The notes under the pieces: generated by a model
The model's database searches: none
Seen by the model: the letters and a program-made list of their open reading frames with translations, nothing else
What the model was told of the DNA's origin: nothing
In this document: one piece after another, positions 24,550 to 27,881 of the stretch
Layout: each line of letters opens with the position of its first letter
Numbering within the stretch: the first letter of the stretch is position 1
Assembly: GCA_030680575.1 (NCBI GenBank)
Contig: JAUXVI010000013.1
Location: 1 to 64,000, forward strand
Reading direction: 5' to 3'
DNA from: Hylemonella sp.
GTDB lineage: Bacteria; Pseudomonadota; Gammaproteobacteria; Burkholderiales; Burkholderiaceae_C
Length of the DNA stretch: 64,000 nt
Translations under genes and position numbers: made by a program

Positions 24550-25602
24550 ATGCACGCGACCGAACCTGACCAACCCGCCCCGCTGCTGCCCGGCCTGCTG
24601 CGGCGCGGGCTGATCGTGCTGCCCGTCAACACCCTGATCGCCCTGCTGCTGACGCTGGTCATGCGCGAACCGTTCTGGCAGAACATGGTCTATTCCAACC
24701 TGATCGGTCTGTGCATCTGGGGCCTGGTCGAGTTTGGCGCGCACCGCTTCATCCACCCCGGCGCCAACAGCGCGCTACGCTGGGCTGTCGTCAGCCTGCT
24801 GGCCGTGCTGTTCGGCTACGCGCTGGGCAGCCGCCTGGCCAGCCTGCTGGTGGGCCATTCGCTGCTGGCCTACTGGCAGTTCGAGCCGGGCCGTGCCGCC
24901 GGCATGCTGCTGGTGGCGGTGCTGGCCGGCAGCGGCCTCACCTACTACTTCGCCTCGCGCACGCGGCTGGCGCAAACCCGCGCCCAGGCCGAAGCGGCGC
25001 AGCGCCATGCGGCCGAGGCGCGCCTGCGCCTGCTGGAAACGCAGTTGGAACCGCACATGCTGTTCAACACCCTGGCCAACCTGCGCGCGCTCATCACCAC
25101 CGACCCGCCGCGCGCCACCGCCATGCTCGACCGCATGATCGCCTACCTGCGCGCCACGCTCAGCGCCTCGCGCCAGGGCACGCACCCGCTGGCGGCCGAG
25201 TTCGAGCGCCTGCAGGACTACCTGGAACTCATGGCCGTGCGCATGGGCGCGCGCCTGCACTACACGCTGAACCTGCCGCCCGAGCTGGCCGCGTGCCCGG
25301 TGCCGGCGCTGCTGCTGCAGCCCTTGGTGGAAAACAGCATCACGCACGGGCTGGAACCCAAGGTGGAAGGCGGCAACATCACAGTGCAGGCGCGGCGCGA
25401 CGGTGCGCAGCTGGTGCTGGAGGTGATCGACACCGGCATCGGCCTGGATGCCGACAACGGCACCTCCGGCGGCACCGGCTTCGGCCTGGCCCAGGTGCGC
25501 GAACGCCTGGCCACCGAATACGGCGCGCAGGCCGCTCTGAATTTTGTAGCTGATGGCGCAGGCGGGACAAGGGCTACCATCACATTTCCTTGCCAAACAT
25601 GA
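24550..25602 (+). CDS. LytS/YehU-type sensor histidine kinase
   Basis: A 350-residue kinase. Four or five membrane helices lie in residues ~15-140. The His_kinase domain (PF06580 type) follows, with phospho-acceptor LETQLEPHMLFNTLANL (~residue 170), and then an ATPase domain with N-box PLVENSITHGLEP and G-boxes IDTGIGLDAD and GTGFGLAQVRERL. The last ~20 residues overlap a dispersed repeat yet still fit the family ending GGTRATITFP. It overlaps the response-regulator gene by four bases (ATGA). The signal is unknown, probably envelope-related. Confidence 0.92.
   Translation: MHATEPDQPAPLLPGLLRRGLIVLPVNTLIALLLTLVMREPFWQNMVYSNLIGLCIWGLVEFGAHRFIHPGANSALRWAVVSLLAVLFGYALGSRLASLLVGHSLLAYWQFEPGRAAGMLLVAVLAGSGLTYYFASRTRLAQTRAQAEAAQRHAAEARLRLLETQLEPHMLFNTLANLRALITTDPPRATAMLDRMIAYLRATLSASRQGTHPLAAEFERLQDYLELMAVRMGARLHYTLNLPPELAACPVPALLLQPLVENSITHGLEPKVEGGNITVQARRDGAQLVLEVIDTGIGLDADNGTSGGTGFGLAQVRERLATEYGAQAALNFVADGAGGTRATITFPCQT
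25534..25588 (+). repeat. Dispersed 56-bp repeat, copy 4 (3' end of the kinase gene)
   Basis: GCT-N11-AGC-N5-GCGC is present, then GACAAGGGCTACC and ATTT at the exact spacing of the intergenic copies. It is sense-oriented and encodes ALNFVADGAGGTRATITF. Confidence 0.6.
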
Positions 25603-26429
25603 ACACCCGCCCGACCGCCCTGATTGCCGAAGACGAACCACTGCTGGCCCAGGCGCTGCAGGCCGAGCTGGCGCGCGCCTGGCCGGCACTGCAGGTGCTG
25701 GGTGTGGCCGGCAACGGCGAAGCGGCGGTGGCACAAGCGCTGGCGCTGCAACCCGACGTGCTGTTCTTCGACATCCGCATACCGGCCCTGAGCGGGCTGG
25801 AAGCCGCCGCCGCGCTGGCCGACGCCTGGCCACACAACGGGCTGAAGGACGGGCCGCAGAACAAACACTTCCCCGCGCTGGTGTTCGTCACCGCCTACGA
25901 CCAGTACGCCGTGCAAGCCTTCGAGGCGCAGGCGGTGGACTACCTGCTCAAACCCGTGCAGCCCGAGCGCCTGCAAAAAACCGTGGCCAAAGTGCAGCTA
26001 GCCCTTGCCAACCATGCGCCAGGCGCTATGAATTTTGAAGCAACGCTGACGCAGCTGCGCCACTTGCTTGCCGCTCCCACAACAGCAGCGGCCGCCCCCA
26101 GCGCACCGCTGCGCCTGCTGCAGGCCAGCGTCGGCCAGGCCATTCGCATGGTGCCGGTGGACGAGGTGCTGTATTTCGAAGCCGCCGACAAATACGTGCG
26201 CGTGCTCACGGCGGAACACGAGTACCTGCTGCGCACCCCGCTCAAGGAACTGCTGCCGCAGCTCGACCCGCAGGCCTTCTGGCAGGTGCACCGCGGCACC
26301 GTGGTGCGCGCCGAGGCCATTGAGTCTGTGACGCGTGACGAGGCCGGCAAGCTCTGGCTGCGCCTGCGCGGCAGCCCGGTGCGGCTGGCCGTGAGCCGGC
26401 TCTATGCGCACCTGTTCAAAGCCATGTAG
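25599..26429 (+). CDS. LytR/AlgR-type response regulator
   Basis: A 276-residue regulator. The receiver domain (residues ~1-125) has the acidic pair EDE, phospho-acceptor Asp in LFFDIRIP (~residue 52), Thr in VFVTAYDQYAVQAF and Lys in YLLKPV. A linker of ~35 residues includes a reversed copy of the dispersed repeat. The C-terminal LytTR DNA-binding domain (~165-276) has VDEVLYFEAADKYVRV and FWQVHRGTVV. ATG at 25599 overlaps the kinase stop. It likely controls transcription of a few envelope or carbon-source genes. Confidence 0.93.
   Translation: MNTRPTALIAEDEPLLAQALQAELARAWPALQVLGVAGNGEAAVAQALALQPDVLFFDIRIPALSGLEAAAALADAWPHNGLKDGPQNKHFPALVFVTAYDQYAVQAFEAQAVDYLLKPVQPERLQKTVAKVQLALANHAPGAMNFEATLTQLRHLLAAPTTAAAAPSAPLRLLQASVGQAIRMVPVDEVLYFEAADKYVRVLTAEHEYLLRTPLKELLPQLDPQAFWQVHRGTVVRAEAIESVTRDEAGKLWLRLRGSPVRLAVSRLYAHLFKAM
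25988..26041 (-). repeat. Dispersed 56-bp repeat, copy 5 (antisense, in the response-regulator linker)
   Basis: Read on the minus strand: GCTTCAAAATTCATAGCGCC, then TGGCGCA and GGCAAGGGCTAG at the expected spacing. It is antisense to the gene yet open in the gene's frame, encoding KVQLALANHAPGAMNFEA between receiver and LytTR domains. Confidence 0.65.
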
Positions 26430-26463
26430 CCCGGGGCTGCCCCAACGTTTTTTTACAGCCCCC

Positions 26464-26490
26464 TCAAGTCTTCGCGCGGGCTGCCGTTAA
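26464..26490 (+). promoter_or_regulatory. Sigma-28 (FliA)-like promoter
   Basis: TCAAGTCT, 11 bases, then GCCGTTAA. Against the E. coli consensus TAAAGTTT-N11-GCCGATAA, 13 of 16 positions match with exact spacing. It points away from the response regulator into a gene-free stretch that ends at a strong terminator. Confidence 0.5.
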
Positions 26491-26496
26491 TAAAAG

Positions 26497-26629
26497 TATC
26501 GGGCTCGGTTTTGGCGAACTGCCCGGTGGCCCACCCCTCGGGGTGATGCCGGTTTGTCTCCTCGGCCAGCTTTTAATCAGGGTCTGGTCTTAAGCCCGCA
26601 GGTGCTCCTTTCCTGCGGGCTTTTTATTT
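26497..26629 (+). ncRNA. Candidate small RNA (sigma-28-like promoter to intrinsic terminator)
   Basis: About 130 bases lie between the predicted start (~7 bases after GCCGTTAA) and the T-run. No open frame with a ribosome site is seen. An internal hairpin CACCC-CTCG-GGGTG and the terminal 11-base-pair hairpin give it the layout of a bacterial regulatory RNA. I do not recognise an Rfam family. The alternative is that this is only the 3' region of the two-component operon. Confidence 0.4.
26592..26629. terminator. Strong intrinsic terminator
   Basis: AAGCCCGCAGG (26592-26602) and CCTGCGGGCTT (26612-26622) pair perfectly over 11 bases around a 9-base loop, followed by TTTTTATTT. It ends the rightward transcript; its AA-rich left side may also help end the leftward gene at 26637. 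Confidence 0.9.
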
Positions 26630-26636
26630 GTCCGTC

Positions 26637-26996
26637 TCAGCGGTGCCCGCCACCCGGACGCCCATGCTCAAACCGTTCGTGCCCGCGGTAGCCCGGGGCC
26701 GGGCCACGCTCCCAACCCCGGTGATGGTGCTGGTGGCGCCAGCCGGGCGGCGGGCCGTAATACACCGGTGCCGGTGGCATGTAGACCACCGGGCGCGGTG
26801 GCGGCATGTACACCACGGGCGGGTGCATCACCACCGGCGGGGCACTGGCCACACCCACATGCACGCCGGGTGACGCCACGCCGATGGACCAGTAGATGTT
26901 GTCGCCGTGCGCGTGCGCCGCGCCGCTGGCACCCAGCGTCAGCGCAGCGGCGCATGCCAGTGCGGCAAGGGCTTTGACGGACGTTTTGGCTTTCAT
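26637..26996 (-). CDS. Secreted Pro/Tyr/His-rich small protein
   Basis: A 119-residue protein with a clear signal peptide (KTSVKALAALACAAALTL, likely cleaved after AAHA). The mature part is rich in Pro, Tyr and His: VVYMPPPRPVVYMPPAPVYYGPPPG, then HQHHHRGWERG and a Gly/His/Arg tail. Such proteins are common and unassigned in Burkholderiales; His-rich ends may bind metal. Start is the ATG at 26996. Confidence 0.7.
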   Translation of the reverse strand: MKAKTSVKALAALACAAALTLGASGAAHAHGDNIYWSIGVASPGVHVGVASAPPVVMHPPVVYMPPPRPVVYMPPAPVYYGPPPGWRHQHHHRGWERGPAPGYRGHERFEHGRPGGGHR

Positions 26997-27131
26997 CGCA
27001 TTTCCTTTGTCGGGGCAAAAACACAGGCCCCGTACCCGTCAACGCGCTGCGCCGCAAAGCGACGACGTCCCATCTGTGAAGAACGTCGCCAAAGGTAACA
27101 AGCCCGGGCGCTGCCGGGCTGCGGCCAGGGC

Positions 27132-27881
27132 TCAGCGCGCCAGGTAGCCGCCGTCCACCGGGTAATAGGAGCCGGTCACAAACGACGCCCGGTCCGAACT
27201 CAGCCAGGCCACCAGCTCGGCCACCTCTTCCGGCCGGCCCAGGCGGCCGATCGGATGCGCCGCCACCAGCATGGCGTTCACCGCCTCGTTCTGCTCCAGC
27301 GCGCCGATCATGGGCGTGTGGATGAAACCCGGCCCCACCGCATTCACCCGGATGCCCTGCGTGCCGTAGTCCAGCGCGGCGGTCTGGGTCAGCCCCAGCA
27401 CGCCATGCTTGGCTGCCGTGTAGGCCGGCGAGCCGGAAAAACCCACCGCCCCCAGAATGGACGCCACGTTGACGATGGCACCGCCCCCGGTCTTGAGCAT
27501 GGCGGCGGTCTGGTACTTCATGCCGTAGAACACGCCCGTCAGGTTGATGTTGATCACCTGGGCCCAGCCATCGAGCGGGTAGTCGGCCAGCAGCGCCTGC
27601 GGGCCGCCAATGCCGGCGTTGTTGCAGGCCACGTCCAGCCGGCCGTAGTGCGCCACCGCCTTGGCCACCAGCGCCTCGTTGTCTTGCGGTTGGCCCACAT
27701 CGGCCGCCACAAAGATGGCGTCGCCGCCCTGCTGGCGCACCAGCGCCACGGTTTCCTCGCCGCCGGCCGCGTTCACGTCCGACACCACCACCTTGGCGCC
27801 CTCGCGCGCCCACACCAGCGCAATCGCACGGCCAATGCCCGACGACGCGCCGGTGACCAGACCTACCTTGTTCTTCAACAT
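27132..27881 (-). CDS. Short-chain dehydrogenase/reductase (glucose-1-dehydrogenase-like)
   Basis: A 249-residue classical SDR. The cofactor motif is TGASSGIGRAIAL, followed by NNAG (CNNAGIG), catalytic Ser in NVASILGAVGFSG and Tyr/Lys in YTAAKHG, and the C-terminal FVTGSYYPVDGGY. An Asp after beta-2 (VVVSDVNA) suggests NAD rather than NADP preference. Substrate unknown. The start ATG at 27881 has AAGGAGAAC upstream. Confidence 0.88.
   Translation of the reverse strand: MLKNKVGLVTGASSGIGRAIALVWAREGAKVVVSDVNAAGGEETVALVRQQGGDAIFVAADVGQPQDNEALVAKAVAHYGRLDVACNNAGIGGPQALLADYPLDGWAQVININLTGVFYGMKYQTAAMLKTGGGAIVNVASILGAVGFSGSPAYTAAKHGVLGLTQTAALDYGTQGIRVNAVGPGFIHTPMIGALEQNEAVNAMLVAAHPIGRLGRPEEVAELVAWLSSDRASFVTGSYYPVDGGYLAR

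Follow-up and report, generated by a model that had tools for sequence, protein, structure and literature searches.

We identified a candidate small RNA (sRNA) gene in the stretch of DNA analysed here (the window, 64,000 nucleotides), which is contig C19 of a 3.42-Mb genome (G000) that is 93% complete. The element occupies positions 26464-26629, and we interpret it as a sigma-28-transcribed anti-Shine-Dalgarno (anti-SD) sRNA, a probable metabolic repressor similar to RF02278 and S17 that would be under motility control. We estimate the probability of this reading at about 0.58. It is drawn from features of the DNA, namely a promoter-type box, a transcription unit, the conservation of both, an accessible seed in the predicted fold and sites in the same genome that are complementary to this seed.

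The sigma-28 (FliA)-type promoter box extends from 26464 to 26490 on the plus strand (full sequence TCAAGTCTTCGCGCGGGCTGCCGTTAA). It can be written as TCAAGTCT-N11-GCCGTTAA or, equivalently, as a -35 element TCAAGT (26464-26469), 13 intervening bases and a -10 element GCCGTTAA (26483-26490). Scored against the 16-position E. coli FliA consensus, the box matches 13 positions. The same match with N11 spacing had been reported in a first-pass annotation of this DNA, and we confirmed it: across the 64 kb, this is the only site with at most three mismatches, whereas dinucleotide shuffles of the window contained 0.05 such sites on average (at least one site in 5 of 100 shuffles). A looser search for the box, allowing two mismatches, gave two sites in the window versus 0.72 expected. 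The exact pattern TCAAGT-N13-GCCGNTAA has a single match in the entire 3.42-Mb genome, which is this box; with one mismatch, it was found in seven places, and since a reversed control gave four, these sites are mostly noise. The annotation had also placed an 11-bp terminator with a T-run about 100 bases past the box. Such a terminator is present at 26592-26625 on the plus strand, with stem 26592-26602/26612-26622 (AAGCCCGCAGG/CCTGCGGGCTT), a 9-base loop (26603-26611) that carries a second anti-SD motif, GCUCCUUU, and a T-run from 26621. It was absent from the results of a simple terminator scan because the scan is limited to loops of 8 bases. The predicted sRNA is thus ~130 nt long (26497-26626, plus strand), with the start placed 7 nt past the -10 element and the end at the T-run. 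The predicted fold of the region 26490-26640 has an energy of -60.1 kcal/mol (z = -2.75), a value equalled by 2 of 200 shuffles.

The unit is flanked by two genes that do not belong to it: upstream, a LytTR-type response regulator gene (lytR-like; 25590-26429, plus strand; Pfam LytTR and Response_reg) and downstream, in convergent orientation, an open frame for a His/Gly/Pro-rich predicted secreted protein (26637-26996, minus strand), for which no Pfam match was found. A DNA search of 100 relatives recovered the unit in four genomes, all from one genus (4 of its 26 genomes, including the window's own, which was placed in this genus by a classification tool). The other three carriers are Curvibacter delicatus NBRC 14919 (G002), Curvibacter sp. 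PD_MW3 (G024) and Curvibacter sp. GWA2_64_110 (G025), with identities to the unit in the window of 91%, 98% and 85%, respectively. The match in G024 runs from 26462, two bases before the -35 element, to 26625, inside the T-run; that in G025 shares this first base and extends to 26634, and that in G002 begins at 26445. Another member of the genus, G018, has lytR and a similar secreted-protein gene close together, and no such box was found in the fetched locus.

Identity alone does not support conservation above the neutral level, since the value for G025 (85%) is no higher than at four-fold degenerate sites of lytR (85%) and that for G002 is only slightly above it. The case for conservation therefore rests on the contrast between the box and its spacer and on the limits of the conserved block. 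Among the four carriers, none of the 14 box columns varies, versus 9 of the 13 spacer columns (Fisher p = 1.5e-4); between the window and G025 alone, the corresponding counts are 0/14 and 7/13 (p = 0.0019). The covariation signal is weak, because the single compensatory pair (C-G to U-A in G025, in hairpin 1) was reached in 123 of 500 shuffles. Conservation extends beyond the stems to the loops and the linker, including the seed and the terminator loop. The relatives also bear on the claim that no reading frame lies between box and terminator, which holds in the sense that no conserved one does. Frames ending within the transcript have at most 16 codons, and a TTG-started frame of 45 codons (26554-26691) reads through the terminator. 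We rejected a small protein encoded by the latter: its translation breaks down within a few residues in both G024 and G002 and, in G025, differs from the second residue on, and such early divergence in three relatives indicates that the frame is not a conserved protein.

Conserved sequence at this place could also be explained without any regulatory RNA, if the element were nothing more than the lytR terminator embedded in conserved sequence. The narrow distribution of the unit, and the identities of G025 and G002 at or near the four-fold level, would agree with this explanation, but we consider it quite improbable. A small GGGGCTGCCCC hairpin followed by a T-run is located just past the lytR stop codon (26433-26454; not in the list of the simple terminator scan) and is likely a separate terminator of lytR. 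Moreover, in G024 and G025 the box, rather than the lytR stop, marks the start of the conserved block, the loops and the linker are conserved rather than the stems alone, and the block survives separation from lytR in G024. While lytR and the RNA are adjacent in the window, G002 and G025, the lytR ortholog of G024 extends to C8:221,945 and is separated by ~9.6 kb from the RNA match, which begins at C8:231,505, and the nearest predicted frame upstream of the RNA unit points in the opposite direction. Four minus-strand frames are predicted in the intervening segment (G024:C8:221946-231504), three of them long and one shorter. A frame of the secreted type similar to that in the window adjoins the RNA in G024 and in a more distant genome, G027 (by eye). 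With lytR so far off and the nearest frame opposed, the unit appears to travel with its box and its downstream neighbor, not with lytR; and since box, RNA and terminator stay together in G024, the unit is self-contained. We regard the assignment of the element as a putative stand-alone sRNA gene with a sigma-28-type promoter as well supported by the sequence.

In the predicted structure, the RNA begins with hairpin 1 (26498-26527, plus strand, as are all elements of the RNA) and hairpin 2 (26528-26550), in which 97.9% and 100% of alignment cells, respectively, are paired in the four carriers. They are followed by a linker with the anti-SD seed UUUGUCUCCUC (26553-26563), predicted to be mostly unpaired, and by hairpin 3 (26564-26589; GGCCAG...CUGGUC; 92.3% of cells paired), which takes the position of the first hairpin of RF02278-type RNAs. 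The seed, which did not figure in the first-pass annotation, is complementary to extended Shine-Dalgarno sites. Across the folds predicted for the four genus carriers, its bases are unpaired with values of 0.8-1.0, except for the CC dinucleotide (0.4-0.6), and the terminator loop GCUCCU(U/C)U is unpaired with values of 0.90-0.97 (0.97 in the window RNA). The hallmark of an anti-SD sRNA, a motif located in an unpaired region, was thus found in the predicted fold, with the CC about half paired.

Outside the genus, the gene order kinase - lytR - RNA - secreted gene - glutaminyl-tRNA synthetase is the same in G027 as in the window (by eye). The RNA of G027 was matched by a full-length model, R1 (E = 0.0027), and by a model of the 3' core, R2 (E = 4e-12, with G027 itself included in the model). 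It retains an identical GCCGTTAA -10 element, AGTCTCCTC and the stretch GUCUCCUC, which is common to all four genus carriers as well; it also has a terminator, CCCGCAGG/CCTGCGGG, as in the window but without an anti-SD motif in the loop, and a GCCAGC/GCTGGC hairpin in place of hairpin 3 (by eye). The -35 element is degenerate (TTAATT), the 5' part is unrelated and the predicted fold leaves the seed half paired. Conservation of the promoter elements, which had been proposed as a check, is accordingly complete within the genus, where -35 and -10 are invariant in the four carriers, and partial in G027, where only the -10 element is preserved.

Model R1 gave matches in 8 of the 399 genomes of the family. 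Apart from those in G000 and G002, they include the syntenic ortholog in G027 (L067) and an RF02278 copy (L064), and we rejected four other loci (L065, L066, L068 and L069) as orthologs, because they look like chance matches. R2 matched 57 of the 399 genomes at E up to 0.02. Among the 27 R2 loci that were read, six are RF02278-type RNAs (G292, G103, G441, G188, G296 and G271), two are 3' ends of amtB-like genes (G112 and G398), and one, in G210 (L185), has TCTCCTC ahead of a terminator; most of the others appear to be ordinary terminators. The locus in G197 (L197, minus strand, near 1501-1580) consists of GTTGTCTCCTC, a GGTAC hairpin, TTCAAGCCCG and a terminator, at a place different from that in the window. 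It is a further RF02278-like candidate, without a match in Rfam at E values up to 0.05. The pattern GCCGTTAA-N50..80-GTCTCCTC is no evidence by itself, because it occurred four times in the 399 genomes and equally often in a reversed control.

Flagellin loci from 12 genomes were used to compare the box with flagellar promoters (27 loci entered, of which 2 were too short and 25 were scored). The best upstream site reached at least 12 of 16 consensus positions in 10 of the 25. In each of the four carriers, one flagellin gene is preceded by TCAAGT-N14-CCCGATAT, at a distance of 94-98 bases from the point where the family match begins; an additional flagellin gene, with a TAAAGT...CCCGAAAA box, is present in G002, G024 and G025. 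As TCAAGT precedes flagellin in all four, the -35 element of the window is the flagellin -35 element of the carrier strains. The -10 element GCCGTTAA differs from the flagellin CCCGATAT, and the spacing in the window is one base shorter than in the TCAAGT flagellin group. When ~180 kb of flagellar sequence from G024, G002 and G025 (regions L052-L061) was searched strictly for the window-type box, G024 and G002 each yielded a single site; the two sites correspond in position and are oriented opposite to the operon. TCAAGT-N13-(G/A)CCGATAA was observed between flgI- and flgH-like genes (by eye), antisense to the operon, in three genomes (L054:12412-12438, plus strand; L056 near 18910, minus strand; G000:C31:7296-7322, minus strand) and could belong to an antisense RNA.

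FliA (TIGR02479) scored above the cut-off in 20 of the 26 genus genomes, including G002, G024 and G025, but not in the window's own assembly (93% complete). This genome does encode FlgM, the anti-sigma-28 factor (Pfam), flagellin and a row of flagellar rod and hook genes (by eye). On its contig C31, flgN- (by eye) and FlgM-type (Pfam) genes are located near the start, and in G024 fliA follows flgN by ~50 bases. A local tblastn search with the G024 FliA found nothing in the 341 bases past flgN at the end of C31. Our initial explanation that the contig merely breaks before fliA was wrong, as the end piece beside flgN is other sequence. These bases (L074, G000:C31, 1-341) contain a 53-residue end of a frame, transposase-like by eye and without a Pfam match. 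Because they do not encode fliA, the gene of this strain may lie in an unassembled piece, or may have been displaced or lost. The suggestion of a sigma-28-dependent sRNA made in the first-pass annotation consequently stands in part: the box is kept and the unit is intact apart from lytR, but the window's own assembly lacks fliA and the unit occurs in only 4 of 26 genomes.

The absence of fliA from the assembly and the degenerate -35 element of G027 leave room for a real sRNA that is transcribed from another promoter, or cut by RNase E from a longer lytR transcript, next to a coincidental sigma-28 box. A precedent is Bordetella S17, which in the available text of a preprint (PMC11722255) is said to be transcribed from a sigma-A promoter and processed to a short form, and RF02278-type RNAs of related genera lie between osmC- and ilvA-like genes with no visible box. 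We consider this explanation rather unlikely: the box is invariant while its spacer drifts, the unit of G024 is intact from the box on with lytR ~9.6 kb off, and a scan of positions 25900-27200 found no sigma-70-like promoter.

To predict targets of the sRNA, we searched its own genome for exact GAGGAGACA(A/C)A sites. Of the six found, one corresponds to the opposite strand of the RNA gene. All five remaining sites are ribosome-binding sites, each with its end 1-4 bases upstream of an ATG. It counts against reading these genes as targets that any 11-mer with AGGAG in it would be expected at such sites in any case. According to Pfam, the five genes encode a cytochrome c, a CMD-family protein, a catechol-type dioxygenase, a TctC receptor and a dehydrogenase of the NAD-binding 6PGDH/3-hydroxyisobutyrate dehydrogenase type. 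The dehydrogenase gene has the site in all four carriers, as GAGGAGACACA, of which the window RNA matches only 9 bases without a break. The predicted duplex energies of the five targets range from -22.4 to -24.7 kcal/mol, versus a background mean of -13.4 kcal/mol (sd 3.7, n = 129 predicted starts), and 4 of the 129 background starts reach -22.4 kcal/mol. The seed is predicted to point to mRNAs for metabolic, uptake or redox proteins, rather than to the c-di-GMP genes with which the first-pass annotation had associated the RNA.

In the model that we propose, FliA (sigma-28) would transcribe the free-standing sRNA gene from the box at 26464-26490 while flagella are being built or are running, and transcription would stop at the intrinsic terminator to yield the ~130-nt RNA. 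The seed UUUGUCUCCUC, aided by the second anti-SD motif in the terminator loop and presumably by Hfq, would pair with extended ribosome-binding sites that read GAGGAGACA(A/C)A. Pairing would block translation of mRNAs for proteins of solute uptake, catabolism and redox reactions, with the TctC receptor, the catechol-type dioxygenase, the 3-hydroxyisobutyrate-type dehydrogenase, the CMD-family protein and the cytochrome c as predicted targets. If the model is correct, the RNA is expressed in a FliA-dependent manner and its biological purpose would be to couple swimming with metabolism. A sigma-28-transcribed sRNA could also act in another way, as a sponge or by pairing inside coding regions, as the available text of PMC10578931 describes for E. 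coli MotR and FliX; UCUCCUC would then be incidental. This is very unlikely in our opinion, given that GUCUCCUC matches the start of RF02278 and is kept not only in the four genus carriers but also in G027, where the rest of the 5' part is unrelated.

A scan of a collection of 84,980 species with the pattern CAAGT-N13-GCCGWTAA-N45..75-TCTCCTC returned 27 stretches, a count that is uninformative because ~30 are expected by chance under even base use (our own estimate). The 12 stretches that were read comprise three Curvibacter orthologs, one locus with the full architecture (L125) and eight that do not have it by eye. L125 comes from an uncultured Burkholderiales metagenome-assembled genome (CALHRD010000010.1). 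It has CCTCAAGT-N13-GCCGTTAA, a strong hairpin, GTGTCTCCTC, and then GCCGGGC/GCCCGG and eight T; the element lies at ~985-1104 on the minus strand, flanked (by eye) by a short open frame and a NikR-like gene, and Rfam yielded no match to it (E up to 0.05). Judged by this sequence, L125 may be an independent use of the same wiring and a second candidate for a sigma-28 anti-SD RNA. That Burkholderiales have repeatedly set RF02278-like anti-SD RNAs under the flagellar sigma factor, with the effect that cells would silence uptake and catabolic genes at translation while swimming, and with the window element and L125 as two independent cases, is a tentative proposal to which we give somewhat less than even odds.

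Two other groups of anti-SD-like elements were observed. A short AGTCTCCT(C/T) directly precedes a terminator downstream of amtB-like genes in four genomes (G000:C24:3938-3997, i.e. L198, and L180, L190 and L200) and may mark an anti-SD RNA derived from a 3' UTR. In two genomes of another genus (L151 and L165, reverse strand), a nearly identical stretch of ~100 nt just downstream of lytR contains ACCCCGACTCCTCTGAGTCCCCTCCTCCTCCGGGGT and a terminator; it is another likely anti-SD RNA near the same place.

The window RNA had no match to Rfam at curated thresholds. With relaxed thresholds, it scored 24.7 bits with RF02278 (Betaproteobacteria toxic sRNA; cut-off 50, E 0.0025-0.004), 24.4 bits with RF02837 (anti-hemB; cut-off 49.5, E 0.0005) and 19.9 bits with RF02344 (ar14; cut-off 58.8), in each case below the score for membership. 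The part common to the window RNA and RF02278 comprises UGUCUCC (positions 1-7 of RF02278), a hairpin, UU(A)AGCCCG and the terminator. Compared with the RF02278 5' core UGUCUCCUCC, the window RNA has UGUCUCCUC, in which the tenth base differs. Both RF02278 hairpins are present in order, and instead of CUCCUC in the loop of the first hairpin, there is CUCCUUU in the terminator loop. Since the build is similar but the score is below the gathering cut-off, the window RNA is RF02278-like without being a member of the family. RF02278-type copies were also seen in several genera of the family (L064, L070 and L172-L176, near 1500-1630), mostly flanked by osmC- and ilvA-like genes. Four of seven scanned osmC-ilvA loci scored 54-68 bits and three scored 42-49.9 bits, and no sigma-28-like box was seen before the copies at these loci.

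No RF02278-type RNA with a sigma-28 promoter was recognizable by title among the literature matches listed, and a search for work on Curvibacter sRNAs or on flagella and FliA in this genus returned nothing relevant. Such a version would wire flagellar gene expression directly to metabolic translation in Comamonadaceae. The switches of RF02278-type RNAs vary, and the anti-SD module would prove to be recombinable with new promoters.

The closest known counterparts of the window RNA are RF02278 RNAs (Burkholderia ncS03/05/27/62 and bdhR1) and the related Bordetella S17S, with which it shares the UGUCUCC seed, a hairpin, UUNA and the terminator, as well as predicted pairing at the ribosome-binding sites of genes for transport and catabolism, one of them mmsB-like. 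The available text of PMC11722255 describes RNAs of the RF02278 type from across the Betaproteobacteria and connects them with carbon use and transport. There, S17 lowered fusions of mmsB (3-hydroxyisobutyrate dehydrogenase) and of transporter genes ~2-fold, its proposed sites are at ribosome-binding sites, compensatory changes support the pairing for one regulator gene, and RNase E processes the RNA to the short form. In contrast to RF02278, the window RNA has an extra 5' part with two hairpins and no CUCCUC in the first loop; it differs from the osmC-ilvA copies in genomic place, and it is preceded by a sigma-28-type box in place of the sigma-A promoter of S17 (PMC11722255). With E. coli UhpU, MotR, FliX and FlgO, as described in the available text of PMC10578931, it shares its small size, an expected FliA promoter and the coupling of flagella to other functions, and the sigma-28-dependent Campylobacter sRNAs CjNC1 and CjNC4 (available text of PMC4626219) show the same likeness. 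The four E. coli RNAs are derived from UTRs, while the predicted targets of the window RNA are metabolic ribosome-binding sites. More than one anti-SD motif is also present in the alpha-proteobacterial AbcR1/2 and NfeR1, whose targets include periplasmic binding proteins and metabolic enzymes; transcription of AbcR1/2 uses LsrB/RpoH1 and not FliA (all from the available text of PMC8844928). Finally, Neisseria NmsRA/NmsRB have unpaired anti-SD motifs and down-regulate TCA-cycle mRNAs (available text of PMC5362039), in which they resemble the window RNA, and they differ from it in control and genomic place.
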